Source of the DNA: Leisingera sp. ANG-Vp
Lineage (GTDB): Bacteria; Pseudomonadota; Alphaproteobacteria; Rhodobacterales; Rhodobacteraceae
Assembly: GCF_000813725.1 (NCBI RefSeq)
Contig: NZ_JWLD01000026.1
Span: 1 to 62,474 of the forward strand
Direction: 5' to 3'
DNA length: 62,474 nucleotides
This document shows, in pieces, positions 11,573-57,214 of this stretch (positions are counted from its first letter, which is position 1; every line of letters starts with the position of its first letter). Under the pieces are notes generated by a model, which saw only the letters and a list, made by a program, of their open reading frames with translations, had not been told where the DNA came from and did no database searches. The position numbers and the translations under genes are program-made.

Positions 11573-14080
11573 ATGAAAACCCAAGTCAAAGCACTTGTTG
11601 TTGGCGGCGGCGCCGTCGGCACCTCGATTGCCTATCACCTGGCCAAGGCCGGCTGGGACGACGTCATGCTGATCGAGCGTGACGAGCTGACCTCCGGCTC
11701 GACCTGGCACGCAGCCGGCCTGCTGCCGCTGTTCAACATGTCCTACGCGACAACCCACATCCACAAGTACTCGGTCGACTTCTACAAGACCCTGGAAGAG
11801 GAAACCGGCCTGAACGCAGGTTTCGCCGTGGTGGGCAACCTGCGCATGGCGCAGACCCAGGAGCGCATGGACGAGTACATGCTGTACGCCTCCACCGCCG
11901 AGACCTGCGACGTGGACTATGAGTGGCTGACCCCGGACCAGATCAAAGAGCGCTGGCCGCTGATCGAGACCGGCGATCTGAAAGGTGCGATCTACCACAC
12001 CGAAGACGGCTACATTAACCCGGCCGACGTGACCCAGGCGATGGCCAAGGGCGCCCGTCAGCGCGGTGTTGAAATCGTCCGCAAGATGCAGGCCGATGCC
12101 TTCCATTGGACCGGCACCCACTGGGAAGTCACCTGCACCAAGATGGTCGAAAAAGGCGGCAACCTGGTTCCTTCCGACGAGCAGGTGGTGATCACCGCCG
12201 AGCACGTCGTGACCGCATCGGGCAACCACGCGCAGCGCACCGCGAAAATGCTGGGCATCAAAATGCCTGCAATCCCGGTCGAGCACACCTTCATCGTCAT
12301 GGACAAAGATCCCGAGCTGGTCAAATGGCGTGAAGCCGGCAACCCCGAGCACCCCGTTGTGCGCGACGCCGACAATGAATCCTATGCCCGCGAAGAGCGC
12401 GGCGGCTGGATCCTCGGCATCTACGAGCGCGGCGCACCGGCGCAGTTCGAGCACGGCGTGCCGGACAGCTTCCGCGCCGACCTGTTCCCGCTGGATCTGG
12501 ACCGGATCGCCGAGCAGTACATGGCAATGGCAGAGCGCGTTCCCTCCTGTGCCGAATCCGGCCTGAAGGACGACTTCAACGGCCCGATCTGCTACACCCC
12601 CGACGGCAACCCGCTGGTCGGCCCGGCGCCGGGCCTGCGCAACATGTGGCTGGCGGAAGGCTTCTCCTTCGGCATCACCGCTGCTGGCGGCACCGGCTAC
12701 TACCTGGCGCAGATGATGGTCGACGGCGAAGCCGAGATCGACATGGCGTCGCTGGACCCGAAACGCTACTCCTCCAACTGGATGACCACCGAGTTCGCGG
12801 CCCGCAAGAACGAAGAGTGCTATGAGCACGTCTACATCCTGCACCACCCGGACGAAGAGCGCGAAGCCTGCCGTCCGCTGCGCACCGCGCCTGCTTACGA
12901 CCGCCAGAAGGCCCGCGGCGCACAGTTCGGCTGGGTCAACGGCTGGGAACGCCCGAACTACTTCGGCCCCGTCGATGCGCCTGACAACTATGACCACGAC
13001 GCCCGCTCCTTCCGCCGCGGCGGCTGGTGGCAGCACGCCGTGGAAGAGGCGAAAGCCGTGCGTGAAGGCGTTGGCCTGATCGACGCAACCGCCTTCACCA
13101 AACATGTCGTCAAAGGCCCCGGTGCCACCCAGTTCCTGGACTGGTTCACCTGCAACAAACTGCCGAAGGTCGGCCGCATCAACCTGACCTACGCGCTGAC
13201 TGTTTTCGGCACCACCCGCACCGAGTACACCATCGTCCGCAACGGCGAGAACAACTACTATCTGGTCTCCGCCGGCGCCTGGTCCGAGTATGACGCCGAC
13301 TTCCTGCGCAAGGCGGCCGAAGACAAGATGGAAGAGTTCGGCTACATCGAGATCCAGGACGTGACCAGCCAGTGGGGCGTCTTCGCCATCGCAGGCCCCA
13401 AGTCCCGCGATGTGCTGAAAGAGGTGATCGTCGACGCTGATCCGGAAACCGCTCTGTCCAACAAGCGCTTCCCCTGGCTGTCGGCCAAGCAGATCGAACT
13501 GGGCATGTGCCCGGTCAACGCGATCCGCGTGGCCTACACCGGTGAACTGGGCTGGGAACTGCATCACCCGATCGAGATGCAGAACTACCTGTTCGACCTG
13601 CTGGAGAAAGCCGGCGGGAAGCACGGCATGAAGCTGGTCGGCGCCCGCGCCCAGAACTGGCTGCGCCAGGAGAAATCCTACCGTGCCTTCGGCAACGAAC
13701 TGGGCCGCGACGCGACCCCGCTGGAAGCCGACCTGCCGCGTTTCATCGACATGTCCAAGGACTTCCACGGCAAGGACAAGCTGGAAGAGACCGGCGTCCG
13801 CGTGAAGTGCTGCACTTTGCTGATCGACGGTCCGTCCGACGCCGATCCCTGGGGCCGCGAGGCGCTCTATGCCGCAGACGGCACCCGTGTGGGCCGCCTG
13901 ACCTCCGGCGGCTACTCGGTGGCCTTCGAGAAGTCGATCGGCATGGGCTACGTGAAGCCTGAGTACGCGGTGGAAGGCACCAAGCTGCAGGTCAAGATCC
14001 AGGACAAGCTGTGGGATGCAGTCGTCACCTGCGACAGCCCCTACGATCCGAAGAACGAGACCATCCGCCAGAACGGCTAA
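11573..14080 (+). CDS. GcvT-family FAD dehydrogenase (dimethylglycine/sarcosine dehydrogenase type)
   Basis: The 835-residue enzyme has an N-terminal DAO-type FAD domain (about 1-390; VVGGGAVGTSIAYHLAKAG at 9-27) and C-terminal GcvT/aminomethyltransferase folate domains (about 430-830). The motif GSTWHAAGLL includes H46, equivalent to the histidine that carries covalent FAD in dimethylglycine and sarcosine dehydrogenases. Known members demethylate N-methylglycines and pass the one-carbon unit to tetrahydrofolate. GGAGAGCCGGAGA precedes the ATG. Codon choice is strongly biased to C-ending codons, as expected for a highly expressed gene. The exact substrate cannot be fixed, since roseobacters carry several paralogues. 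A Rieske oxygenase for quaternary amines lies 1.8 kb downstream. Confidence 0.92.
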   Translation: MKTQVKALVVGGGAVGTSIAYHLAKAGWDDVMLIERDELTSGSTWHAAGLLPLFNMSYATTHIHKYSVDFYKTLEEETGLNAGFAVVGNLRMAQTQERMDEYMLYASTAETCDVDYEWLTPDQIKERWPLIETGDLKGAIYHTEDGYINPADVTQAMAKGARQRGVEIVRKMQADAFHWTGTHWEVTCTKMVEKGGNLVPSDEQVVITAEHVVTASGNHAQRTAKMLGIKMPAIPVEHTFIVMDKDPELVKWREAGNPEHPVVRDADNESYAREERGGWILGIYERGAPAQFEHGVPDSFRADLFPLDLDRIAEQYMAMAERVPSCAESGLKDDFNGPICYTPDGNPLVGPAPGLRNMWLAEGFSFGITAAGGTGYYLAQMMVDGEAEIDMASLDPKRYSSNWMTTEFAARKNEECYEHVYILHHPDEEREACRPLRTAPAYDRQKARGAQFGWVNGWERPNYFGPVDAPDNYDHDARSFRRGGWWQHAVEEAKAVREGVGLIDATAFTKHVVKGPGATQFLDWFTCNKLPKVGRINLTYALTVFGTTRTEYTIVRNGENNYYLVSAGAWSEYDADFLRKAAEDKMEEFGYIEIQDVTSQWGVFAIAGPKSRDVLKEVIVDADPETALSNKRFPWLSAKQIELGMCPVNAIRVAYTGELGWELHHPIEMQNYLFDLLEKAGGKHGMKLVGARAQNWLRQEKSYRAFGNELGRDATPLEADLPRFIDMSKDFHGKDKLEETGVRVKCCTLLIDGPSDADPWGREALYAADGTRVGRLTSGGYSVAFEKSIGMGYVKPEYAVEGTKLQVKIQDKLWDAVVTCDSPYDPKNETIRQNG

Positions 14081-14101
14081 ACCCTGACGGAAGAGATGAA
14101 G

Positions 14102-14130
14102 AAGCCCCGGTCAATGTGCCGGGGCTTTTT
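14102..14130 (+). terminator. intrinsic terminator
   Basis: AAGCCCCGG-tcaatgtg-CCGGGGCTT followed by TTT. It ends the GcvT-family dehydrogenase gene. Confidence 0.9.
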
Positions 14131-14257
14131 CGTGGGAACTGCAAAAAGGGTTCAATAGTACAAGTTGCGTAGCTGTTTCAACGATGCTGCGGGGAATCCA
14201 CAGCGACTCGTGATCTTGCTCTGGAAGCGTTTCCGGTGACTTGGGGGAAGCAGACCC

Positions 14258-14809
14258 TTATTCGATAAGCTCGAGCTGTGTTTGAGACAGGTGCAATCCA
14301 AGCAAATTCTTGTCTTGGTCATACAGATTGTAGTTGGCGTAGATTTGGAACTTGATTCCACCCTTAACCCATACATCCAGGCTCTTTTTCCTGCCTAGGC
14401 GCACTTTGCCTGGACGGAAACCGGCTTTTCGAAGAGCACCAGTAACAAGCTCGTAAGCTTTAGCCGCGCTGATACCTTCGGCCAGCCTGCTCATTTTGCA
14501 ATCCAAACGCTGGTTGGGCGGTTTGTCGAATTCCATGAGCATCGAGCCTCTGTTGGGCCGCCCAGGGTAATTGTGCCGCTCGTATTTAACGATTCTTCTC
14601 GTTTCCCGTTTGAGGGTGTAGCCCCTGTTTTGCATGCGAGCAGTATCCAAGCTGCCCTCTGCTGCAGATGCGCAAACTCTAGTAAATTCAATGATATCAG
14701 AATTTGACGGCAGAAATGGTGCGGTTTCCGCTGATGCCAATCCCGCCCAGGATACAAGCGCCGATAGCGCAAGAGTTCGACGAAGCCGAAGAGAGATAAA
14801 AAATTTCAT
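14258..14809 (-). CDS. secreted protein of unknown function
   Basis: This protein of about 183 residues has a signal peptide (MKFFISLRLRRTLALSALVSWAGLASA). The mature part contains two cysteines (in TRVCASAAE and RLDCKMSR) and a C-terminal region rich in beta-type alternation (KSLDVWVKGGIKFQIYANYNLYD). An in-frame GTG at 14818 is an alternative start; no strong ribosome-binding site is seen before either. The base composition is visibly AT-richer and the codon use less GC-biased than in the genes on both sides, suggesting acquisition by transfer. No family recognised; periplasmic location inferred from the signal. Confidence 0.7.
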   Translation of the reverse strand: MKFFISLRLRRTLALSALVSWAGLASAETAPFLPSNSDIIEFTRVCASAAEGSLDTARMQNRGYTLKRETRRIVKYERHNYPGRPNRGSMLMEFDKPPNQRLDCKMSRLAEGISAAKAYELVTGALRKAGFRPGKVRLGRKKSLDVWVKGGIKFQIYANYNLYDQDKNLLGLHLSQTQLELIE

Positions 14810-15197
14810 TTTTGTCACTGAACAAGTTTCGGGTAGGCTAGGCTTATTCGACAGCCTGTTAATAGATCAACCGGATTTACTGGATCTGGAGAGGGTTTTG
14901 TGCGTTGCCTTTTGAACATGCAGCCTGGCTGCAGAAACCGCTGAGAAGTCACTTACACGGTGGCTGCGGCTTGATGCCGGGTGGCGGGCTGTAAGGGTTC
15001 GCTTAGGGCAGACGGCTGGGGCGATCCAAATCAAAACCCTCCCGCCCGTCACCGTTCGGATGTGAAATCCGAAGGTTCCCGTTGGGCCAGGCAGGCCGCG
15101 CCGGAGGCGCGGCCTGCCTGGCCCCCGTGGCGGCGCACAGCGTGCGGCGCAAGGCTTCCTTTGAACCTTGCCGCGGGGCACCGCTCGGCAGCGGAGG
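14810..15197. other. spacer with repeat copy B
   Basis: Between two minus-strand genes. The first 130 bp are AT-richer and probably carry the promoter of the secreted protein. The rest holds structured repeat copy B (15039-15124) and GC-rich sequence. No gene seen. Confidence 0.55.
15039..15124 (+). repeat. dispersed structured element, copy B
   Basis: Begins CTCCCGCCCGTC (15039-15050). Hairpin 1 is TTCGGAT-gtgaa-ATCCGAA (15055-15073), whose sequence is unrelated to hairpin 1 of copy A. TTCCCGTTGGGCC follows. Hairpin 2 is a perfect 19-bp stem (15084-15102 with 15106-15124), loop GGA, starting GGGCCAGG and closing CCTGGCCC. It lies downstream of the EF-hand gene, on the opposite strand to it. 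Confidence 0.85.
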
Positions 15198-44143: not shown

Positions 44144-44257
44144 CTTTTGCTGCAAGAAAGCCTTAACGAATGGCGGATTCGCTGCCGGGGGATCTCCGGT
44201 GCAGCGCTTCTGCTGTTTGCGACCCATAGACGCCTAAACGACTCAAAGGACCACGAC

Positions 44258-46543
44258 ATGAGCCGCTTTGCCGCCCCCATCGCCGAGCAGATCTGGGATA
44301 TGAAATACCGTTTCAAGCAGGCCGACGGCACGCCGATCGACGTGACTGTCGAAGACAGCTGGCGGCGGATTGCCCGGGACCTGGCGCGGGCGGAGAGTGA
44401 TCCGGCGGCCTGGGAAGACAAATTCTTTGGCGCGCTGGAAGATTTCAAATACCTGCCTGCCGGCCGGATCACCGCAGGTGCCGGCACCGCGCGGCAGGTC
44501 ACCCTGTTCAACTGCTTTGTGATGGGCACGGTGCCGGACAGCATGTCGGGCATTTTCGATATGCTGAAAGAAGCGGCGCTGACCATGCAGCAGGGCGGCG
44601 GCATCGGGTATGACTTCTCCACCATTCGGCCGCGCGGCGCCGATGTGAAAGGCGTGGCGGCGGATGCCTCCGGCCCGCTGTCGTTCATGGATGTCTGGGA
44701 CGCGATGTGCCGCACTATCATGTCGGCAGGCTCGCGCCGCGGCGCAATGATGGCGACCATGCGCTGCGACCACCCGGATATCGAGCAGTTCATCACCGCC
44801 AAATCCGACCCGGCGCGCCTGCGGATGTTCAACATGTCGGTGCTGGTCACCGATGATTTCATGGAAGCAGTGAAGGCGGACGGTTCCTGGGAGCTGCAAT
44901 TCGACGGCAAGGTATATCACACTGTTGAAGCGCGCGATCTGTGGAATAAGATCATGCAGGCGACCTATGATTACGCCGAGCCGGGCGTGATCTTCATCGA
45001 CCGTATCAACAAGGCCAACAATCTGAGCTACGTTGAAAACATCTGCGCCACCAACCCTTGCGGCGAGCAGCCGCTGCCTCCCTACGGCGCTTGCCTGCTG
45101 GGCTCGATCAATATGGCGCGGCTGGTAGCGGATCCGTTTGAGAAGGGCGCGCATCTGGACCAGTCCGCAATGCAGGAGCTGGTCGCCACCGCTGTGCGGA
45201 TGATGGACAATGTTGTCGATGTGTCGAAATTCCCGCTGGAAGCGCAGGCACAGGAAGCCAAGAACAAGCGCCGGATCGGCCTGGGTGTCACCGGCCTTGC
45301 TGATGCGCTGCTGATGCTGGGGCTGGAATACGGCTCCGACGAGGCGGCGCGTCAGACCGACGAGTGGCTGCACGGTATCGCTCGCGCCGCTTATCTGGCG
45401 TCGGTGGAGCTTGCCAAGGAGAAGGGCGCCTTCCCGCTGTTTGATGCCGAGGCGTATCTGAACTCCGGAAACATGCTGAACATGGACGACGATGTGCGCG
45501 ACGCCATCCGCGAGCATGGCATCCGCAACGCGCTGCTGACGTCGATCGCACCGACCGGCACCATCTCTCTCTACGCAGGCAATGTGTCTTCAGGCATCGA
45601 GCCGGTGTTTGCCTATGCTTACACCCGCAAGGTTCTGCAGAAAGACGGCTCGCGCACCGAGGAGGAAGTAGTTGACTACGCGGTGCAGATGTACCGCGAG
45701 AAATTCGGCGCCGACGCCAAACTGCCTGACTACTTCGTCAACGCCCAGACCCTGTCCCCCGCGGCCCATGTCAAGATGCAGGCGGCGGCGCAGAAGTGGA
45801 TCGATTCGTCGATCTCCAAGACCATCAACTGCCCGGAAGACATCTCCTTCGATGACTTCAAGGATGTCTACATGCAGGCCTGGGACCAGGGCTGCAAAGG
45901 CTGCACCACCTACCGCCCGAACGACGTGACCGGCTCGGTCCTGTCTGTGAGCGAAAGCGCCGACACTGCGCCGGGCGAGACCGCGCAGGCGCCGCATGAG
46001 AGCGACAGCGCCGAGGTCGTCTACATGTCCGAGCCGCTGGACCGCCCGCAGTCGCTGGAGGGCCATACCTACAAGCTGAAGTGGCCGGACAGCGAGCACG
46101 CGATCTACCTCACCATCAACGACATCATCATCAACGGCCACCGCCGTCCGTTCGAGGTGTTCATCAATTCCAAGAACATGGAGCATTACGCCTGGACGCT
46201 GGCGCTGACACGGATGATCTCGGCCGTGTTCCGCCGCGGCGGCGATGTTTCCTTTGTGGTGGAAGAGCTGAAAGCGGTGTTCGACCCGCGCGGCGGTGCC
46301 TGGGTGCAGGGCAAATACATCCCCTCGATCCTAGCGGCGATCGGCGGCGTGATCGAGACCCATATGGTCAAGACAGGCTTCCTGGAAGGCGAAGGCATGG
46401 GCCTGAAGTCCGATCCGCAGGCGGAGGTGGTGAACCTGAACGCCCCGCGCGGCAAGGCCTGCCCCAGCTGCGGCCAGTTCGACATGCAGATGGTCGAAGG
46501 CTGCATGACCTGCCGCAGCTGCGGCCACAGCAAGTGCGGGTGA
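44258..46543 (+). CDS. nrdJ: adenosylcobalamin-dependent ribonucleotide reductase (class II)
   Basis: The 761-residue enzyme reduces ribonucleotides to deoxyribonucleotides using adenosylcobalamin, independent of oxygen. Active-site cysteines lie in LFNCFVMGTV and in ENICATNPCGEQPLPPYG. Substrate and structural motifs include QQGGGIGYDFSTIRP and SIAPTGTISLYAGNVSSGIEPVF (here split by two turns). The C-terminal tail CPSCGQFDMQMVEGCMTCRSCGHSKCG-like region carries six cysteines for zinc binding and re-reduction. ATG 44258 follows AAAGGACCACGAC; upstream codons in frame are ignored. DnaA boxes lie in the promoter. Confidence 0.96.
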   Translation: MSRFAAPIAEQIWDMKYRFKQADGTPIDVTVEDSWRRIARDLARAESDPAAWEDKFFGALEDFKYLPAGRITAGAGTARQVTLFNCFVMGTVPDSMSGIFDMLKEAALTMQQGGGIGYDFSTIRPRGADVKGVAADASGPLSFMDVWDAMCRTIMSAGSRRGAMMATMRCDHPDIEQFITAKSDPARLRMFNMSVLVTDDFMEAVKADGSWELQFDGKVYHTVEARDLWNKIMQATYDYAEPGVIFIDRINKANNLSYVENICATNPCGEQPLPPYGACLLGSINMARLVADPFEKGAHLDQSAMQELVATAVRMMDNVVDVSKFPLEAQAQEAKNKRRIGLGVTGLADALLMLGLEYGSDEAARQTDEWLHGIARAAYLASVELAKEKGAFPLFDAEAYLNSGNMLNMDDDVRDAIREHGIRNALLTSIAPTGTISLYAGNVSSGIEPVFAYAYTRKVLQKDGSRTEEEVVDYAVQMYREKFGADAKLPDYFVNAQTLSPAAHVKMQAAAQKWIDSSISKTINCPEDISFDDFKDVYMQAWDQGCKGCTTYRPNDVTGSVLSVSESADTAPGETAQAPHESDSAEVVYMSEPLDRPQSLEGHTYKLKWPDSEHAIYLTINDIIINGHRRPFEVFINSKNMEHYAWTLALTRMISAVFRRGGDVSFVVEELKAVFDPRGGAWVQGKYIPSILAAIGGVIETHMVKTGFLEGEGMGLKSDPQAEVVNLNAPRGKACPSCGQFDMQMVEGCMTCRSCGHSKCG

Positions 46544-46544
46544 G

Positions 46545-47349: not shown

Positions 47350-49989
47350 ATGCCTGAAAACACGGAATACTCTGTTCACCTGAGCTGGGCGCATGAGGTT
47401 TACCGCGCCCTTGGCTGGACGCTGGAAGAGATTGACGCCGCCGAGGCGGCCCACGACCTGCAGCAAAATGGCGCTGTTACGGGCGGCAGTGCCCAGGCGG
47501 AACGGCAGGCCGTTGCCGGAACCGTGGCACAGGACATCCATGACAGCTTGCAGGGTGATACAACCGAAACGGACCTGAGCGAACTGGCTGCTGATCTTGC
47601 CGAACGCGGCGGGTTTGAGGAGACTGGCGATCATCAGCTGGCAGAACTGCTGGAGCGGCTGCTGGCGCGGGTCCGATCCGAGTTGCAGGCCGAACAGGCA
47701 CAGGTATCCTCCTTGGAGGAGGGAACGGAGGCAAGACCTGCCTTGGTGCAATCGGCAGCCCGGATCAGCCGCCTGCTGGAAAAGGCGGAGGCCGAAGGCA
47801 AGCTGGGCCGTTTCGATCCCGCGCAGGCCACCTTGGCCGAGGCCGAAGCCGCCCTTGGCGATCTGCGGGCGCTGCGCCTGTCGGTGCCGGCGCAGGATGC
47901 GCCGGCAGAGCCCGGTCCGGCGGTGCGCGCGCTTTGCGATGATGCGGACAAGGGCGCGTCTGCCTTGAGCGATGCCGGCTTCGGCGGTCCGGCGCGCGCG
48001 CTGGCCGCGGCGCGCGACGGCCTGCTTGCAGCACATTGCGCTGATGACGACCCGGCCTGGAAGTCGCTGCAGAAGGAAGCAGCGCTCGCGGTCAAATCGG
48101 CGGGCAAGTTCCGCTCCCTGGCGGCCCGGATCGGGGCATTTTGCACCAGCCTCAGCAATGAAGGCCTGGGAGACACCGCAGACAGTCTGCGCGACGATTT
48201 GGAAGAGATCCGCAACAGCACTGCGCGCTCGGTCATGGGCAGTTTCGGCGTGCTGGTTCAGCTTGATGCCCAGGCGGCGCAGAAGGACAAGTATGCCAAG
48301 CGCCAGGAGTGGACCGAAGCCGAATTCACCGAACGTTCCGAGGCCTTGCGGGATGCATTGAAAACTTTGTTCCGGACCGATGCGGAGGGCAGCATCCTGA
48401 CCCGCAAAGACGACAGCCGGGTGGAGAAACGGGCCGGTGACGTGGCGGGGCTGGACCATGACGTCTATGTGCAGATCCCGCGCCGCGCGGATAAGAAGAT
48501 CCCCCGCGCCACAATGGAAGCGCTGCTGGAAACCGTGACTTTCCTGGACGGTCTACGGGACGCAGGCGTGGCAGGGGTGGAAGACATCGCAGCGGAAGAA
48601 TTGCTCAAGGCCGAAGAGCTTCTGAAAGGTATTCAGGGCCAGACCAGTGAATACGAGCAGATGAAGAAGGGTTTGGCCAAGCTGGCAGAGAAAGTAGCCA
48701 AACTGGGAACCGGCAGCACCAAAGGCTATTACATCGAAGAACGCCTGCGCCTGACCGGAGAAATAGAGACGCTGTCCACCGCCTATTTGACCACCAACAT
48801 CAATCAGGCCCTGCGGCAGCTGACAGAGCTTGAAACCGGCCGCTACAAACCGCTCAAGAAGGATGCTGTGCTGGCGGTTGAAAAGCGCAAGCAGTTCGAC
48901 AAACACGCGGCCAAGGCGGATCCGTTGTTTGACGGCATTGCCAGAGCCATGGCGGACCTTGGTCATGCGGACGGGCTGCTGCAGTCCCTGGTTGACGCCG
49001 GATTGCTGGACAAGGAAGCCACCCGCTACAGCGGCGACCTGAGCCGCGCGCGTGATGAGGCGGTTCGGCTGGCAGATAATGCGGTCACCCACGAAGAGCT
49101 GACCGAGGCGGTTCTGAAAATCAGCAGTGTCGTTAGCAATTCCGAGCGGCAGCTGGCTGAACTGAAGGAATACGCAAAAATGAGCGCCGGAGACAGCGGT
49201 ACCAGTGATGCGCTGGAGACCTATTTCGGCAGAATGATCGAAGACTACAAAACGGGCCGGGACCGCTTCGAGCAGCAGCAGAAAGATGCCAGCGCGTTTG
49301 CAGCGGCAATGAAGCCGATGGTGCAGGAGCTGGAGGCGATGCTGCGCGGTAAATTCGATCTGAAACGAGTCCAGGACAAAAGCCGCGGTTTCAAGCGTGC
49401 GGATGCCGACAGTGTTGACCATGGCCGGCTGCGGGAGCTGGTGGCCGAGCTGCAGCTGTTGAAGAAGGAAAGCGCAGCCAGCCACAGCCACGCAGAGAAC
49501 ATGGACCGGCTGGCAGCAGTGGGCGAGTCCCTGGCTGCGATCCGCGGCGAGATCACTGGTTTCCGCGAGGACGTGGCCAAAAAGCTGCGCCTTTTCAGTG
49601 CCAATTGCACCGCACGGCTGAAACAGGCCGAAACTTATATCAGCGGGCAATTCGCTGCAGCCGTCGCCAAGGAGCAAGGAGACGGGCAGAACGTGCTGGA
49701 CGCCGCGGCTCTGCAAAGCTTCCTGGACACTGTCGCCGCGCCGCTGGCGCTGGACGGGCTGGACACGCAGGTGGAGGTCATCGCCGATGCCAAGAAGCCG
49801 CTGGAAGAGCGCAAGGCGGCGCGTGAAAAAGCGCTGCGCCTGGTGCGGCCGGTTCTGGCTGCGTTGGAAGGCAACCCTGCTGTGAAGCATTACCTTGCGC
49901 ATCCTTTCAGCCCGCCTCCCAAAGATCTGCGCATGGCGCAGACGGAACTCACCCAGCTTGAACTGCGGCTGCTGCAGCTCGCCTCCTGA
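47350..49989 (+). CDS. large helical/coiled-coil protein, first gene of caspase cassette
   Basis: An 879-residue, mostly helical and acidic protein with no signal peptide or membrane segment, so probably cytoplasmic. A compact start (NTEYSVHLSWAHEVYRALGWTLEEIDAAE) precedes long Ala/Glu/Leu/Lys helices. The heptad-like stretches include ELLERLLARVRSELQAEQAQV and LLEKAEAEGKLGRFDPAQATLAEAEAAL. A possible globular part occurs near 355-390 (TRKDDSRVEKRAGDVAGLDHDVYVQIP). No nuclease, ATPase or other catalytic motif was found and I recognise no family. The ribosome-binding site is weak. It is followed after 43 bp by the second large gene. A scaffold or structural role is inferred from composition only. 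Confidence 0.85.
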   Translation: MPENTEYSVHLSWAHEVYRALGWTLEEIDAAEAAHDLQQNGAVTGGSAQAERQAVAGTVAQDIHDSLQGDTTETDLSELAADLAERGGFEETGDHQLAELLERLLARVRSELQAEQAQVSSLEEGTEARPALVQSAARISRLLEKAEAEGKLGRFDPAQATLAEAEAALGDLRALRLSVPAQDAPAEPGPAVRALCDDADKGASALSDAGFGGPARALAAARDGLLAAHCADDDPAWKSLQKEAALAVKSAGKFRSLAARIGAFCTSLSNEGLGDTADSLRDDLEEIRNSTARSVMGSFGVLVQLDAQAAQKDKYAKRQEWTEAEFTERSEALRDALKTLFRTDAEGSILTRKDDSRVEKRAGDVAGLDHDVYVQIPRRADKKIPRATMEALLETVTFLDGLRDAGVAGVEDIAAEELLKAEELLKGIQGQTSEYEQMKKGLAKLAEKVAKLGTGSTKGYYIEERLRLTGEIETLSTAYLTTNINQALRQLTELETGRYKPLKKDAVLAVEKRKQFDKHAAKADPLFDGIARAMADLGHADGLLQSLVDAGLLDKEATRYSGDLSRARDEAVRLADNAVTHEELTEAVLKISSVVSNSERQLAELKEYAKMSAGDSGTSDALETYFGRMIEDYKTGRDRFEQQQKDASAFAAAMKPMVQELEAMLRGKFDLKRVQDKSRGFKRADADSVDHGRLRELVAELQLLKKESAASHSHAENMDRLAAVGESLAAIRGEITGFREDVAKKLRLFSANCTARLKQAETYISGQFAAAVAKEQGDGQNVLDAAALQSFLDTVAAPLALDGLDTQVEVIADAKKPLEERKAAREKALRLVRPVLAALEGNPAVKHYLAHPFSPPPKDLRMAQTELTQLELRLLQLAS

Positions 49990-50032
49990 TACCAGCGAAG
50001 CTCCGGCCTTGAAGCCGGAAGAAGGAATTGAA

Positions 50033-53000
50033 ATGGCATATACCGGCAAGCAGATCGAATGGCTCGAAACAGCCCAGGGCGGGGCTGCGGATTTTGCCGC
50101 CGCTGAACAGAAGGCGCAGAAAAAATCCGCCAAGCTCACAGGTATTCTGGACCAGCTGGAAGCGGACAAGGAGTTCATCGCCGGTGCGCAGCAGTTTCAG
50201 GTGGCACTGGCCCGCAACAGCTCCATCTTCAAGCTGCCTGGCAGCGGCAAGATGAAGTGGATGACCGGCGATATGAAGTCCGAGGTCGACACCTATGCGG
50301 ACATCTCGCACACCACCAAAATTGATGCGGAGGATTTGAAAAACCTGCACGAAGCCATGGCCAAGATCCTGGAGCGCCAGGACGAAATGCTGGTGGAGGA
50401 AGACGGCAAGCGCGTGTTCACCGATAGGGAGATCATGCAGGAACTTTGGACACCGCTGGTGCGTGAGGGCGTGATCCCGGCGAACCTGGTTCCGGACCGC
50501 TTCAGCGACTTCAAGCATATGTTCGACGGTGCGTCGAAGATCTATGAGGACAAGCTGGCGGAGCATAGCGCCGGAGCGTCCAAGTATGAAGCTGTGCTGG
50601 AGGGGATCGGAATTGCCAAGGACACAGTGGCGCTGGCAACCAGCATCGCCTCTGCAGGGATTACTTTTGGCAATCTGGACACTGCCGGCCGCAGCGTCGA
50701 GGAAACCCGCAACATCCAGGCCAAACAGGAAGTGCTGGGCGCCCGCCAGGGCGCCGCATTGGAGGAGGCCCGCACGGGGCTGAACCTGCCGGATGACGCC
50801 TCTACTGCTCAGGTTCTGGAGGCGGCGGCCGCCAGCAGCTCCCACAAGCATCTGGTTGCAGAATACAACAACCTGGATGCAGCGATCGGCGGCTTGTCGG
50901 ATCAGCTGTTCTCTGATCCGCGCTGGGTGGCCGAGCAGCGGGCGCTGCTGACGGCGTCTTCAGGACTGCTGTCGACCGGGCTGACGATCACCGAAAAGGG
51001 GATCAAATACGGCGAGGACGAAGACAAGACCAAAACCAAGACGCTGCAGTTTGCGTTGCAGACCAGCGATGCAGTGGCCAGCAACATTGTCGCTTCCGCC
51101 CTTAGCGCAGCCGGCTTGTCTGACCGTCAGCGCAACCAGGAAAGCGGCGGTTCCTTCGACCACCGCCAGGGGTTCGCCTCCGGCGGTGCAGTGCTGGATG
51201 CGCTGATCCAGGGCAACCGGCTCGCCGAGAAAATCGTGGCGGCGACCCAGGCCAAGACGCCGGAGGAGCGGGAGAAAGCGATCCTGACCATTGCCGCTTC
51301 GCTTGGGGATACATTTGCCGCGATGGCCGCCTCGACAACCCAGACCGTGGGCAATGTCAGCAGCGGTAATCCGGATAACCCGGTGACCGAACATACCGAT
51401 GAAAGCGTCGAAGGACGCGAACGCCCCGGCCTCTGGGCCGAGCATCCCGGCACTTCGGAACTGTTTGCCGAAGGCATCCGGGGTGTCTTTGTCCTGGGTC
51501 TCAACGTCCGCGGTGCTGCCAAGGCGCTGAAATCCGATCCCCCGGACATGACGGCCTTTGTCACCTCGCTGACCGCGGGACTGGCGCATCTGGGCACCGC
51601 TGCTGCGACCGGTGCAGGGCAGGACAGCCTGTTCACCAAGGAAACCTTGCTGAGCGAAGAGGAATCTGAAGAGCTGTCGAAGCTCAGCACAGAGGATCTG
51701 CTCCAGCGCCGGATCGAGCTGTCCGGATCGAACTTTTCGCGCACCGAAAGCGAGATGGGGCTCGCGGCCTTTGGCCACGCCGGGTATCTGGCGGATGTGA
51801 ACGCCGCAATCCGTTCAATTGTTGAAGGCCTGCAAGAAGCCGAGAAAGCGAAGGAAGACAGTGACGCAGTCAAGGCCAATACTCAGGCGGCGCTGGACAA
51901 GATCGAGCAGGAGAAAACCAGTGCGGCGCTGGATGAACTGAAGAAAAAACTGAGCGATCCCGAGGCGCGCGAGGCTTTTCTAGCGCAGATCAAGGCGGAG
52001 TCGGACGAGGAAATGATGCGGCTGGAGCAGGTCATCGAGGCCGCCAAGCCGCCTGCAAACCCGGATGACCCTGATGCGGTCAAGAAATCTGTGGCAGCCG
52101 TCGACGCGCTGATTGCGGATATCAAGGCTTCGGAAATGAAGCTCAAGCTGATCGAGACCATCGCCAAGGGCGGCACCAAGGTGCTGACCCGTATTTTCCC
52201 GGTGACAGGGCTCGCTGATGCACTGCGCCAGCTTGGTTCGGACGCGGTGGCACTGGCCCGCAAATCCGCCGAGGTGGACAAATGGCGCAAGAACGCTGCG
52301 CTGGCGGCCAGCAGCAATTCGATCTATGCAACGGCCATCAACGAGCGGCTTTACAATGCCGGGGTGCAGGTCAGCCAGCAGACTTTCAACACGTTCTTCT
52401 CGATTCTGGGCGTCGCCGCGGAATCGGCGCGGCTGGCTGATGCCACCGGTGCGGCTACCGGCATCAGCGCAGGCACCTCCATGGCCAAGGCGCTGACCGA
52501 TTTCGGCTATAAGATGCATGGCCGCGCCCGCATCGCCAATGGCTGGAAGAAGTACCTGGAAGCGCGGAAGAACCCGGCCAACCGCAAGGCGGCCCGGGCG
52601 GCGATCTCGGGCAACTCGACGCTGGCGAAATGCGTGCTGGCCTTTGGCATCGTCGAGGACAGGGATCCGGTGGCCCGCCAGGTAGCCCGCAACTGCGGCC
52701 TGACGCCCACCGTGCTGGCTTCGGACAGCGAGGTCTGCGCGGCAGTGGTGAAATACTTCGAAACCCTCTACAGCGACGACCCGGTGGTGCTGCGCCGGGT
52801 CCCGAAGAATGAGGACTGGCACCCGGGCCTTCCGGATCTGACGCTGAAATCCTGGATAACGTTCAAACGGGCGGCGGCGGATCATGCCTATCCGCGTCTG
52901 TCCAAGGACAGCTGCCTGACGCCCGAAGCGGATGCCGCTCTCAAATCCTTGCATCAGCTGTGCAGTGGCGACCCCTTCGGCTATCCCGCGGCCCGCGATG

Positions 53001-53233
53001 CTGTGACAGCTAGCAATCCCGAAGGTCCGGCGGCCTTCTGCCGCGAGGTCAGCAGCCAGCTGGAAGCGCTGATCAAGGCACTGAATGGCTACCGCCCCAA
53101 AACATCCGAACCGGAAAACCCGAAAGATCAGAAATGGACCGCCGGGATGCCGCACCATGAAATGGCGGCGGTTGCAGATGCCATGGCGGCGCAAGCCGAG
53201 CTGATCCTGCGCGACGTGCAGCTGGACCTGTAA
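50033..53233 (+). CDS. very large helical protein, second gene of caspase cassette
   Basis: A 1066-residue protein without signal peptide. The N-terminal 190 residues contain a distinctive block (MKWMTGDMKSEVDTYADISH, then VFTDREIMQELWTPLVREGV and IPANLVPDRFSDFKHMFDGA) that looks like a conserved domain. The middle alternates Ala/Gly/Ser-rich hydrophobic helices (IGIAKDTVALATSIASAGIT; EGIRGVFVLGLNVRGAAKAL) with charged coiled coils (about 620-720). The end has several cysteines. The hydrophobic helices could insert in or pack on a membrane. No catalytic motif recognised. AGAAGGA precedes the ATG; the open frame further upstream overlaps gene 1 and is ignored. Confidence 0.85.
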   Translation: MAYTGKQIEWLETAQGGAADFAAAEQKAQKKSAKLTGILDQLEADKEFIAGAQQFQVALARNSSIFKLPGSGKMKWMTGDMKSEVDTYADISHTTKIDAEDLKNLHEAMAKILERQDEMLVEEDGKRVFTDREIMQELWTPLVREGVIPANLVPDRFSDFKHMFDGASKIYEDKLAEHSAGASKYEAVLEGIGIAKDTVALATSIASAGITFGNLDTAGRSVEETRNIQAKQEVLGARQGAALEEARTGLNLPDDASTAQVLEAAAASSSHKHLVAEYNNLDAAIGGLSDQLFSDPRWVAEQRALLTASSGLLSTGLTITEKGIKYGEDEDKTKTKTLQFALQTSDAVASNIVASALSAAGLSDRQRNQESGGSFDHRQGFASGGAVLDALIQGNRLAEKIVAATQAKTPEEREKAILTIAASLGDTFAAMAASTTQTVGNVSSGNPDNPVTEHTDESVEGRERPGLWAEHPGTSELFAEGIRGVFVLGLNVRGAAKALKSDPPDMTAFVTSLTAGLAHLGTAAATGAGQDSLFTKETLLSEEESEELSKLSTEDLLQRRIELSGSNFSRTESEMGLAAFGHAGYLADVNAAIRSIVEGLQEAEKAKEDSDAVKANTQAALDKIEQEKTSAALDELKKKLSDPEAREAFLAQIKAESDEEMMRLEQVIEAAKPPANPDDPDAVKKSVAAVDALIADIKASEMKLKLIETIAKGGTKVLTRIFPVTGLADALRQLGSDAVALARKSAEVDKWRKNAALAASSNSIYATAINERLYNAGVQVSQQTFNTFFSILGVAAESARLADATGAATGISAGTSMAKALTDFGYKMHGRARIANGWKKYLEARKNPANRKAARAAISGNSTLAKCVLAFGIVEDRDPVARQVARNCGLTPTVLASDSEVCAAVVKYFETLYSDDPVVLRRVPKNEDWHPGLPDLTLKSWITFKRAAADHAYPRLSKDSCLTPEADAALKSLHQLCSGDPFGYPAARDAVTASNPEGPAAFCREVSSQLEALIKALNGYRPKTSEPENPKDQKWTAGMPHHEMAAVADAMAAQAELILRDVQLDL

Positions 53234-53283
53234 CCAACCGCCAGGGCTCCCACGCAGGGCTGCCGCAGATATGGAGAGGTAAA

Positions 53284-54312
53284 ATGGACGCTGAAAAGAT
53301 CAAAGAGCTGGAAACAGATCTGAACCTGGCCAAAACCAAGACGCTGAACTTCGCTTTTGCTGCCGCGGCAGGCAAGAAGGAAGACGCCTGCCTGCTGCAC
53401 AAAACCAGGGGGGCAGACAAACTGCGCCTGGCTGTCAAGCGCGAGGCTGGCGGTACAAAGATCATCAGCGGTCTGGCCAATGTTAAGGGGCCTCTGCTGA
53501 GCGTTACGTGCACGGAGCTCCCCGGAAAGAAAGTGGTGAAGCTTCTGCGCGATTTCCTGCGCAAGAATACGAAACTCAGCAAAGTGCAAGTCTTCGACGA
53601 GAGCGGCGCGCTGGTGATCAGCGACGAGGCGCTGGATTTGGACGACGACGCGCCGGCCCCGCCTATGGCGGGTGCCGAAGCGGACCCCGAGCTGGCCGAT
53701 CTGAAGCAGAAGTTCACCGCGCTGGTGCGCCGGGCCAAGAGTGCTATCAAACAGGATCCAAGCCGGAACGAGGAACTGTCCGCCCAGGCAAGCACCATTG
53801 GAAAATTGCTGGAACAAGGCAGCACCGCTCAGGCGCGCGAGGCCATGGTCAAGCTGCTGGCAGCACTCCAGCAACCGGCAGGTGCGGAACAATCCGCCTC
53901 GAACGGTGAAGCCAAGGGGGTTGCCGCCTCGATCAAGAAGCTGCTGACGCTGCGCACCGAGGTAGAGGCGGAATATGCACGGCTGCTGGCGGAGCTTTCT
54001 AAGCACAACGATGAACGGTTGCGCCGGATTTCCTCTGACGGCCACACAAAGGTCTTTGGCGGCTCGGGCGGGCTGCTGGACGGGCTGGACACGGCGCTTT
54101 TTGATGCGGTCAAGGCCTGGGGCAGCGCCGAGGGGGCAGACAGGCAAAAGGCGGCGCAGGACGTCAGGCAATGTGCGGACCGGCTGTCCGCGCATCTGGA
54201 AGCAAACAGGTTTATCAGCTTGATGGAAAACAACCCTCTGGGAGTTGCGGTGCAGATTAGCAAACCGCTGAAAGAAGCCTTGAGCGAGATCAGCCGCCAG
54301 ACTGCCGCCTGA
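53284..54312 (+). CDS. third protein of caspase cassette, small globular domain plus helices
   Basis: A 342-residue cytoplasmic protein. Residues about 15-110 look like one alpha/beta domain (NFAFAAAAGKKEDACLLHK, GTKIISGLANVKGPLLSVTCTE, PGKKVVKLLRDFLRKNTK). I have an impression that this occurs in other multi-gene bacterial clusters, but I cannot name it. An acidic Pro-rich linker (LDLDDDAPAPPMAGAEADPE) and a helical C-terminal half follow. GGAGAGGT lies before the ATG. Its stop codon lies in the loop of a 10-bp hairpin that precedes the caspase gene. Confidence 0.85.
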   Translation: MDAEKIKELETDLNLAKTKTLNFAFAAAAGKKEDACLLHKTRGADKLRLAVKREAGGTKIISGLANVKGPLLSVTCTELPGKKVVKLLRDFLRKNTKLSKVQVFDESGALVISDEALDLDDDAPAPPMAGAEADPELADLKQKFTALVRRAKSAIKQDPSRNEELSAQASTIGKLLEQGSTAQAREAMVKLLAALQQPAGAEQSASNGEAKGVAASIKKLLTLRTEVEAEYARLLAELSKHNDERLRRISSDGHTKVFGGSGGLLDGLDTALFDAVKAWGSAEGADRQKAAQDVRQCADRLSAHLEANRFISLMENNPLGVAVQISKPLKEALSEISRQTAA

Positions 54313-54323
54313 ACGGCAGTCTG
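54298..54323 (+). promoter_or_regulatory. hairpin spanning the stop codon before the caspase gene
   Basis: CAGACTGCCG-cctgaa-CGGCAGTCTG, a perfect 10-bp stem whose loop contains the TGA of the preceding gene. There is no U tract. It could attenuate or process the transcript so that the caspase is made at a different level from the three upstream proteins. Confidence 0.6.
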
Positions 54324-54352
54324 ATAAAGCGTCACCTGGAATACTGGCCACC

Positions 54353-55813
54353 GTGAAATACTTCCTGAAAATCCTGAGCAGCCTGGCCGGGCTGCTGCTG
54401 GCAACCATGGCCTGGGCCGAACCCAGGATCGCGCTGGTGATTGGCAACTCGGCCTATGACGGGGTTGCGCCGCTGGACAACCCGGTCAACGACGCCCGGC
54501 TGATGTCGGTCAAGCTGGCGGAACTGGGCTTTGACGTCACCAGGGTCACGGATGGCAGCCAGATCCAGATGAAACGGGCAATTGCCCAATTCGGCCGCAA
54601 GCTGCGCTCGGCAGGCAAGGATGCGACGGGGCTGTTCTACTATGCCGGCCATGGGGTGCAGAGCTTTGGCGCCAACTACTTGCTGCCAACCGATATTGCC
54701 TTGTCTGATGCCGCCGATCTGGATCTGCTCGCGATTGAGGCCAAATCCGTGCTGCACCAGATGGCGTCAGCGCAGAACACCACTAACATCGTGATCCTGG
54801 ATGCCTGCCGGGACAACCCGTTCCAGGGGCTGCCGGGACTGGACGACAATGGCCTGGCCGAGATGAAGGCGCCGGTTGGCACCTTCCTGGCCTATTCCAC
54901 GGAGCCGGGCGGGGTGGCATTGGATGGCGAGACGGGCAACAGCCCGTTCACAGCCAGCCTGGCCAGCCATTTGACCGCGCCGGGCCTGCCGGTCGAGCAG
55001 CTGTTCAAACGCGTGAGGGTTGAGGTGTTGCAGCAGACGAGCGGGTTGCAAATTCCTTGGGACACTTCATCCCTGGTGCGCAATTTCGCCTTCATGCCGC
55101 AGCTTGAGCCAATTGATGCCCAGGCCGAAGCGCTGGCCTGGCAAACCGTTTCCGCCGCGCGCGACGCGGTCCAGCTGATGCTTTTCCTGCGGGCCTACCC
55201 CAAGAGCAGCTTTGAACCCGAAGCCCGCAGCCTGCTGCAGACAGTGATTGCGGAGACGATGCACCCTTCCGCTCCGCCTGCACCGGTCAGTCCGCCGCCC
55301 CCTGCTGGCCAGCCCGGTCAGGCGGCTCAAGCCGATGAACAGGCGATTTTCGATATGGCTGCCCTGGACGATACGGTTGGGGCTTACCAAATGTATCTGG
55401 ACAGCTACCCGCAAGGCAGCTTTGCCGCCAAGGCAGCAGACCGCATTGCTGCCCTGCAGCAAACCCGGGCAGAGGCGCGGCGCCAAGCTATGGCGCAGCA
55501 GGAGGCCGAGGCACCGGTGCCAGTGTCTTTCACGTCCCGGCTTCTCCTGGGGAACCAGCATGTCCGCGGTCAATCCATCGCAGATCTGCTGCAGCAGAGC
55601 CCGCAGTTTCCGCCGGTCCCGGACCTGCCTGATGCGGCATGGAAGGAGAAGACGTGCGCCAGCTGCCACAAGTGGACGCCGGAGACACTGTGCGCGCAGG
55701 CCCGGACCTACATCGGCCGCCCTGCGGCTGTCAGCCTGGTGAAGGAGCATCCGTTTGGCGGAGGCTTGAAAGTCAACCTCAGACAGTGGGCGGTGAATGG
55801 CTGCCGGCAATAG
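54353..55813 (+). CDS. exported caspase-like (C14/metacaspase) protein with C-terminal CxxCH
   Basis: The 486-residue protein starts at GTG 54353 with a signal peptide (MKYFLKILSSLAGLLLATMAWA). A caspase domain follows (about 24-250) with the full dyad: H100 in FYYAGHGVQ and C152 in VILDACRDNPF. Residues 255-300 and 330-370 are two copies of a helical repeat with the signature fLxxYPxxSFxxxA. A Pro-rich linker lies between them. The C-terminal 60 residues contain C435-A-S-C438-H439, a CxxCH of cytochrome c type, plus further Cys at 447 and 484. The protein should act in the periplasm. It ends a four-gene co-directional cassette. The substrate of the protease is unknown; the usual specificity is for Arg/Lys or Asp. 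Confidence 0.92.
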   Translation: MKYFLKILSSLAGLLLATMAWAEPRIALVIGNSAYDGVAPLDNPVNDARLMSVKLAELGFDVTRVTDGSQIQMKRAIAQFGRKLRSAGKDATGLFYYAGHGVQSFGANYLLPTDIALSDAADLDLLAIEAKSVLHQMASAQNTTNIVILDACRDNPFQGLPGLDDNGLAEMKAPVGTFLAYSTEPGGVALDGETGNSPFTASLASHLTAPGLPVEQLFKRVRVEVLQQTSGLQIPWDTSSLVRNFAFMPQLEPIDAQAEALAWQTVSAARDAVQLMLFLRAYPKSSFEPEARSLLQTVIAETMHPSAPPAPVSPPPPAGQPGQAAQADEQAIFDMAALDDTVGAYQMYLDSYPQGSFAAKAADRIAALQQTRAEARRQAMAQQEAEAPVPVSFTSRLLLGNQHVRGQSIADLLQQSPQFPPVPDLPDAAWKEKTCASCHKWTPETLCAQARTYIGRPAAVSLVKEHPFGGGLKVNLRQWAVNGCRQ

Positions 55814-56309: not shown

Positions 56310-56840
56310 TTAGCAACGAATCTGTAACCGGTCGAAATGAAACGCCTCCGGGGCCTCACAGCGTGATAGGCGATAAGGCACATTTCCGCTGGCCAATTTG
56401 AACGCATCCCCATTCAGGCGCGCAACAATCGCCTTCTGCGACAGCTCAAGTGGCTGGCACTGAAACGCTCCGCCTCGACGACTTGTTGCCGGGTTGCGGC
56501 TGTTGCTGGGATGGCGAAAACAAATCGATTTGGTCCCATTCACGCTATCCAACCTCCATTCTTCCGGAACGACCTTGCTGTTGCCGGGAAACCAAAGCCA
56601 GGCGCGCCCACCTGGTGCAATGTAGTTCACCTGAAAGCCGTGATACTTATTAAACGACAAGTAAGTGGTATTGGCCCGAGGGTAGTTTGGGAATGAATTC
56701 GGACGACTTGAAACCTCGGCGATGGCGGCCTGCACGCTTGTCCTTGGCACCTCAGGTGGTGCCTCGGACGTCATGCAGGCCGAAAGCAGAAGTGCGGCAC
56801 CCAAAATCGGCACCCGCGCCACCTGGCCGGACTTTAGCAT
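56310..56840 (-). CDS. lipoprotein of unknown function (second of pair)
   Basis: A 176-residue protein starting MLKSGQVARVPILGAALLLSACMTSEAPPEV with lipobox LSAC. The mature part has a Tyr/Asn-rich centre (NSFPNYPRANTTYLSFNKYHGFQVNY), a beta-rich segment, and four cysteines, the last being the final residue (LQIRC). It overlaps the preceding lipoprotein gene by 7 bp, indicating coupled translation. No family recognised. AT-richer than the core genes. Confidence 0.75.
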   Translation of the reverse strand: MLKSGQVARVPILGAALLLSACMTSEAPPEVPRTSVQAAIAEVSSRPNSFPNYPRANTTYLSFNKYHGFQVNYIAPGGRAWLWFPGNSKVVPEEWRLDSVNGTKSICFRHPSNSRNPATSRRGGAFQCQPLELSQKAIVARLNGDAFKLASGNVPYRLSRCEAPEAFHFDRLQIRC

Positions 56841-57214
56841 GACAGTGTCAAGCTCCAACGAAATGGCTTCCCGCGGTGTTTCACGATAGAAAGATCAGCG
56901 TCCGGACCGAAACCGCTAATCACGGCCAAGGCCCCAGCATTGAGCTTCGCGCGACAACCGGTTTGCGCGTGTGTCAGCGCCTCGATGTCGGCCACCGTGT
57001 ATTTGGAAGAATTGCTGGAAGCCTGCACGTAGGCGATCGGCTTTTCAGCGTTTCGTGCAAATTCAAAGGAATTGCCCTTGTATGTCACGGTTTTGCTTTC
57101 ACTCGCCGCCACTTCGATGGCGGGGGCGGCGGGTTGACTGGATGGCGAGCTTGGCGCCCCACCACAAGCCGAAAGAACGGCCAAAGCCGAAACAAAAAAG
57201 ACAATTTTTTTCAT
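56834..57214 (-). CDS. small lipoprotein of unknown function (first of pair)
   Basis: A 126-residue protein MKKIVFFVSALAVLSACGGAPS with lipobox LSAC, then a Ser/Ala/Pro linker and a small alpha/beta domain (YKGNSFEFARNAEKPIAYVQ, YTVADIEALTHAQTGCRAKLN, VISGFGPDADLSIVKHRGKPFRWSLTLSC). A Cys in TGC and the C-terminal Cys could pair. GGTGGAG precedes the ATG. It is followed by an overlapping lipoprotein gene. No family recognised; AT-richer than the neighbouring core genes. Confidence 0.8.
   Translation of the reverse strand: MKKIVFFVSALAVLSACGGAPSSPSSQPAAPAIEVAASESKTVTYKGNSFEFARNAEKPIAYVQASSNSSKYTVADIEALTHAQTGCRAKLNAGALAVISGFGPDADLSIVKHRGKPFRWSLTLSC

Follow-up and report, generated by a model that had tools for sequence, protein, structure and literature searches.

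Association with type VI secretion of three undescribed protein families encoded beside an exported caspase-fold protein in Leisingera sp. ANG-Vp

The stretch of DNA examined in this work (referred to below as the window) consists of positions 1 to 62,474 of contig NZ_JWLD01000026.1 from Leisingera sp. ANG-Vp (assembly GCF_000813725.1, family Rhodobacteraceae), and it contains a cassette of four genes, labeled A, B, C, and D in their 5' to 3' order on the plus strand, the last of which codes for an exported caspase-fold protein. As judged from sequence comparisons, the proteins A, B, and C belong to undescribed families whose genes repeatedly occur together, and the association of this module with the type VI secretion system (T6SS) is well supported. 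TssK (PF05936), which served as the T6SS marker, was detected in all 30 genomes carrying B (15/15 and 10/10 in two sets, plus G044, G077, G089, G094, and G108), in contrast to 36 of the 149 genomes of a background panel with one genome per genus of the family. Within this panel, TssK was present in 8/8 B-positive versus 28/141 B-negative genomes (Fisher p = 6e-6). In view of this very strong co-occurrence, A, B, and C are concrete candidates for T6SS cargo or machine parts. We see an even chance that the cassette is a horizontally acquired T6SS accessory island, in which A and B would be cytoplasmic cargo, C a dedicated adaptor and D an envelope protease.

A search of a large protein set for relatives of B identified at least 28 proteins, including the window's own, which were aligned (alignment A1). 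Scanning of a genome contig collection with the B sequence alone gave no confirmed locus, whereas scanning of the same collection with the A1 profile alignment gave 13 loci, viz. six from Pseudovibrio, one from Limibaculum, two from Sulfitobacter, one each from Gemmobacter and Szabonella, and two from metagenome-assembled genomes of Rhodobacteraceae. Additionally, B was found in 2 of 21 genomes of the genus, 18 of 394 genomes of the family, 1 of 385 genomes of a class-wide draw and 1 of 72,556 plasmid records (Qingshengfaniella). The mapped set comprises 30 B loci in 30 genomes (the window, L002–L014, L020, L038, L074, and L076–L088); genomes reached twice were counted once by their equal coordinates (L009 = G131, L010 = G026, L020 = G094), and as some of the fetched stretches stop at contig ends, the neighborhood counts are lower bounds. 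A large gene is present directly before B in 29 of the 30 loci, the exception being L005, where tssM is found at this position. Five of these large genes, all from Pseudovibrio, match A in tblastn searches, and for 23 of the other 24, which fall into three subgroups, a leave-one-out profile test within the subgroup was positive (it failed for L076); the subgroups in turn match one another with profile comparison probabilities of 99.3–99.9. A C-family gene lies no more than two genes from A-B in 20/30 loci, 16 of which show the direct order C-A-B on one strand; it was not found in the fetched stretches of the six Pseudovibrio loci, L008, L074, L085, and L086. These gene maps indicate that A-B is the unit conserved, in many cases extended to C-A-B, and the latter is the prevailing order elsewhere, versus A-B-C in the window.

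Direct linkage to T6SS genes was observed at several of these loci. In four Pseudovibrio loci (L003, L004, L006, and L007) the genes A-B-B are located directly downstream of tssM, and in a fifth (L005) B is found there; the tssM assignment was made by phmmer for all five loci and by Pfam for L003 and L005. In L074, the gene order is tssK-icmH-tssM-...-PP2C-A-B, while in L080 (genome G089) the genes C-A-B-OmpA-D are adjacent, and the ~4 kb separating them from tssA/tssB hold a hypothetical gene, ExbB, two ExbD, and DUF4384. As B is present in 2/21 genomes of the genus and TssK in 20/21, the module is accessory to the T6SS and not part of its core.

The positions of the four genes and of their main features are summarized in Table 1. 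The A/B, B/C, and C/D intergenic gaps measure 43, 50, and 40 bp, respectively, and nrdJ is directly upstream of A. The frame of B is open upstream to 49895, but its start was placed at the methionine at 50033, at whose equivalent all 28 aligned rows (window's B included) begin. Since homologs of all four genes occur elsewhere, and A-B are kept as a pair, these genes are not chance open reading frames.

Table 1. Features of the cassette and of its left border, in window coordinates.
Feature	Positions	Strand	Basis
Gene A, 879 amino acids (aa), 3-/4-helix bundle modules in model	47350..49989	+	Open reading frame, AlphaFold, homologs
Gene B, 1066 aa, helical, no predicted transmembrane segment	50033..53233	+	Open reading frame, homologs, model
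B, conserved C-terminal stretch, residues 681–960	52073..52912	+	Column identity in alignment
Gene C, 342 aa, N-terminal part common with tssA-adjacent 281–320 aa protein	53284..54312	+	
Gene D, 486 aa, exported caspase-fold protein (Peptidase_C14), GTG start	54353..55813	+	
D, signal peptide, residues 1–22, by eye	54353..54418	+	Sequence and hydrophobicity
D, caspase domain, residues 25–245, with His100 and Cys152	54425..55087	+	Pfam, alignment
D, C-terminal tail: CxxCH, two more conserved Cys, conserved His	55523..55810	+	Alignment; marks T6SS-linked caspase group
nrdJ (class II ribonucleotide reductase), conserved left border, outside module	44243..46543	+	Pfam

A first-pass annotation, made from the sequence without database searches, had described four co-directional genes of these lengths separated by 40–50 bp, with which the open reading frames agree, and had regarded only the last of them as recognizable, by an intact His100/Cys152 pair. 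It had also described A, B, and C as helical and D as exported, the other proteins appearing cytoplasmic, and the results given here bear out these descriptions, the helicity for A and B. No match above the curated cut-offs was obtained for A, B, or C in Pfam or NCBIfam, the best of the weak Pfam matches below cut-off having E values of 0.002 for B and 0.004 for C. Similarly, A–C matched no PADLOC model at E 0.1 (A versus PbeC, E = 0.17), and PHROGs yielded weak matches only, the best of them between C and a tail tape-measure family (E = 0.004). None of these three proteins has a hydrophobic segment above 1.6 (Kyte-Doolittle, 19 residues). The AlphaFold models of A (mean pLDDT 77, pTM 0.41) and B (mean pLDDT 63, pTM 0.43) are almost wholly helical, and at these confidence values their comparison with the PDB gave no significant match. 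The longest conserved stretch of B is its C-terminal part, where the mean column identity in 40-residue bins is 0.57–0.78 (residues 681–960); residues 121–160 are likewise well conserved (0.71).

Relatives of C are also encoded within T6SS clusters. A profile of C that was built without T6SS-cluster members matches the proteins of 281–320 aa adjoining tssA on Leisingera and Parasedimentitalea plasmids, and a family search with an alignment including both of these plasmid proteins (A3) yielded at least 68 proteins, 65/68 of which are 259–318 aa long. A C-like protein adjoins tssA in the three T6SS clusters that were viewed from the tssA side (L019, L021, and L073), the last of these being the window genome's own T6SS locus.

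The caspase D matches the Pfam family Peptidase_C14 with an E value of 3e-38 (132 bits versus a cut-off of 21.4), and its His100 and Cys152 are invariant in 8/8 aligned caspases. Its match to the EACC1-associated caspase (NF047832) is 54 bits, under the NCBIfam cut-off of 140. The only hydrophobic segment of D is N-terminal and precedes the residues AWA-E; by eye, this is a signal peptide, and its export places D in the envelope. All 12 of the C-terminal tails read (from 18 tail loci) have the CxxCH motif as well as the His and Cys residues that come after it. Such a tail may be a haem c site in which the second conserved His serves as a ligand; alternatively, the four tail cysteines could form disulphides or bind metal. 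When D was compared with plasmids by tblastn, caspase matches were obtained in 268 records, and in 22 of these the match extends over 80% of D or more; the best matches were from Ruegeria, Leisingera, and Parasedimentitalea, and in all three plasmid records examined, from 20 listed, the full-length D ortholog lies inside a T6SS cluster. The 95-residue tail was detected in 16/149 panel genomes, of which 15 contain TssK (p = 5e-10). It shares a contig with tssK in G005, G007, G013, G092, G106, G108, G128, and G137, at a distance of 19–31 kb, is near tssA/tssB in G089, and lies on a different contig from tssK in G004, G044, G068, G077, G083, and the window genome. This group of exported, CxxCH-tailed proteins connects caspases with a contractile injection machine. 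A caspase of another type occurs within the T6SS locus L075 (G803).

The window genome's T6SS lies on contigs other than that of the window. Eight caspase matches, D included, were found in this genome, and six of the eight cover the caspase part of D only. A second tailed D, with about 52–55% identity over most of D, follows parA-parB-OmpA at a contig end (C96), an order which also precedes the T6SS on a Leisingera plasmid, and contig C115, which holds the T6SS, starts inside the ExbD region (L073). From this arrangement we infer that the second tailed D belongs to the genome's own T6SS cluster. Hence, the window's C duplicates a protein of the T6SS cluster, and the same would hold for the window's D. 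A and B were not found in this cluster as fetched. The same contig C115 also encodes, between tssH and vgrG, a protein of 1743 aa in which VipA and VipB domains are combined (L036:4896-10127), which looks like the TssCL sheath fusion described from roseobacters in passages of an earlier study (PMC9515649).

In a phylogenetic tree of B, the window's protein grouped with the Pseudovibrio proteins and four metagenome proteins (100/100), while the B from genus mate G542 grouped with that of G089, apart from the window's; this tree has long branches, those of L076 and L014 above all. Among the sequences compared, the closest relatives of A-B are metagenome proteins, followed by those from Pseudovibrio, and the closest relative of D is a Ruegeria T6SS caspase. 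The flank behind nrdJ was covered in 17 of the 20 genus mates (~9 kb in 15 of them, 3.5 kb in one, and 0.5 kb in another). DNA similarity between the window and these mates stops at the nrdJ stop codon, or less than 250 bp from it in two of them, and the genes A–D were found behind nrdJ in none of the 17. Based upon the ending of similarity at nrdJ, the absence of A–D from the mates at this place and the B tree, we regard the cassette as an acquisition at a variable site, the source of A-B being probably a Pseudovibrio-like T6SS lineage. From window position 46544 on, the gene maps of the mates (L097–L113) differ from each other, some having a gene of ~365–381 aa, and this may be an integration site.

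The mechanism that we infer for such an island supposes a physical link with the T6SS. A and B would form a large two-protein helical cargo, or a cargo plus its carrier, which C would dock onto the T6SS in the cytoplasm, and D would act along the path of the needle through the periplasm, either by cutting the cargo or the apparatus or by limiting self-damage. A cargo with a dedicated adaptor is suggested by the patchiness of the module among T6SS-positive strains, its mobility, the tandem B genes in Pseudovibrio and the cassette's own copies of C and D. A more specific form of this proposal, with a giant A+B cargo, docking by C and a periplasmic caspase D bearing a covalent haem c tail (CxxCH, conserved His), which would tie protease activity to redox state or to needle passage, appears unlikely; if true, D would represent the first case of a caspase that functions together with a contractile injection machine within the envelope of its own cell.

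A number of observations weigh against the accessory island interpretation. The window contains no tss gene, vgrG, hcp, or PAAR, T6SS core genes are present in the fetched stretch of only 7/30 B loci, and scans of A–D against Pfam, NCBIfam, PADLOC, and PHROGs revealed no known T6SS delivery domain; since neither such a domain nor an Hcp/VgrG/PAAR fusion was found, the module is not classed as a T6SS effector. The maps of the B loci, by eye, show no recurring small immunity-like gene adjoining B; eukaryote-directed T6SS effectors need no immunity gene. In Pseudovibrio sp. Ad37 (L002), A-B-B lies at a contig end and only one TssK was found, which scores like the second TssK of the sister strains and unlike the B-adjacent one, a pattern that could reflect natural loss or an assembly gap. 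A caspase with the tail of D is present in the fetched stretch of only two B loci (the window and L080), the tail occurs in G101 where no TssK was found (the sole such genome of 16), and among T6SS-positive panel genomes B and D are unassociated (D in 5/8 with B versus 10/28 without it, p = 0.17). In G044, G077, and G108, B and D are on different contigs, which counts against a tight four-gene system. Lastly, sampling of one genome per genus reduces the effect of shared ancestry, which is still present, and T6SS-positive genomes may have other traits in common.

Another explanation, possible although rather doubtful, is that the T6SS machine itself includes A, B, and C as accessory components, i.e. 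scaffold or assembly factors acting with TssM and the C-like protein, and that D remodels the envelope for the needle. The placement of A-B or B directly after tssM in five Pseudovibrio loci, the neighboring PP2C (L074) and OmpA (L080) genes and the C-like protein beside tssA in three clusters are consistent with such a role, as are the absence of toxin or delivery domains in the library scans, the C-terminal position of B's longest conserved stretch and the weak match of C to tape-measure proteins. However, B is missing from 28/36 T6SS-positive genomes of the panel and from 18/20 of those in the genus, and 23/30 fetched stretches are without a T6SS core gene. Alternatively, A-B, C, and D could be chance neighbors that were acquired separately and have no joint function in the window genome. 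The order A-B-C-D as opposed to C-A-B, the lack of association between B and D, the presence of the window's flank in none of the 17 mates and the different nearest relatives of D and A-B agree with this, but we consider it improbable, because all four genes have independent T6SS links, their 40–50 bp gaps suggest a single operon, and C-A-B-OmpA-D are adjacent in G089. A caspase-centered defense or suicide system, with A–C as phage or stress sensors and D as the exported caspase that would kill or remodel the cell, accords with the PADLOC general caspase model matching D (E = 4e-13) and with the occurrence of bacterial caspases in defense systems, but is very unlikely, as caspases of D's type are rare near B, A–C match no PADLOC model, D is exported, and the group to which D belongs goes with the T6SS.

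The interpretation in the first-pass annotation is thus partly supported. Of the four-gene system proposed there, the recurrence of A, B, and C together stands, but D-type caspases were found near only two of the 30 B loci, so that, by the criterion put forward in that annotation itself, the four genes are rarely together. The view of the caspase as the defining and last member is not supported by this rarity or by the order C-A-B seen elsewhere, and the PADLOC scan of the four proteins provided no link to phage-defense genes. Its suggestion of an accessory insertion beside nrdJ is in accordance with the genus mates, and its option of particle assembly fits the findings, the T6SS link itself not having been proposed there.

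T6SS auxiliary (orphan) effector islands, such as those linked to vgrG or hcp, are known. Like these islands, the module is accessory, patchy, and mostly away from the core cluster; it has so far been seen only in T6SS-positive genomes and carries relatives of cluster-encoded accessory proteins. In contrast to them, no vgrG, hcp, PAAR, known adaptor, or immunity gene was found in the window, and the families are undescribed. A second comparison is with the group-3 T6SS cluster of Roseobacter/Leisingera, described in passages of PMC9515649. Relatives of C (at tssA) and of D are encoded in such clusters, and the window genome has a cluster of this type, with the TssCL-like protein, but in contrast to the cassette it is without A and B as fetched. 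In the T6SS clusters of Pseudovibrio (passages of PMC4811931 and PMC3806328), whose A and B are the closest to the window's among named genomes, A-B-B directly follows tssM, but without C or D alongside in the fetched stretches. The Pseudovibrio T6SS figure legend marks unassigned cluster genes in gray, and A and B are not described in the passages of these two papers. In comparison to other Peptidase_C14 proteins, D has the same fold and His/Cys pair but differs in its export signal, CxxCH tail and T6SS linkage. Passages of PMC9515649 describe TssCL in roseobacters and indicate that, as of 2022, verified T6SS activity was unreported for any roseobacter; the T6SS effectors of this group are mostly predictions. 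The word "caspase" is absent from the texts of PMC9515649, PMC4337385, and PMC5959193, and no paper on a T6SS-linked exported caspase turned up in the literature searched by listing, which covered few subscription journals. The literature considered consists of parts of PMC9515649, PMC4811931, PMC5959193, PMC4337385, PMC4933709, and PMC3806328.

In addition to these results, some features of individual loci were observed. In the assembly of Pseudovibrio JCM 12308 (L007:3600-16442), tssM and both B frames are broken. ExbB-like and ExbD-like genes are found shortly downstream of A-B in Limibaculum (L008:14284-15876), and in L088 (13920-19500) C-A-B is followed by a gene for a 1157-aa protein that Pfam does not match at E 0.01, and by a second gene of the C family. 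C-A-B of Sulfitobacter sp. M05 lies between genes for a chemoreceptor and a SAM-cyclase-AAA protein (L011:1001-3790 and 11755-15069), and an IS110-type transposase adjoins C-A-B of genus mate G542 (L038:8645-9157). The B homolog in the public plasmid record (L020:11992-15060) is annotated as a VapC-family toxin and is probably misnamed. Lastly, two small exported-looking genes are present on the minus strand of the window (56310-57214) between the cassette and an acyltransferase gene, and one of them has a lipoprotein attachment match slightly below the cut-off.

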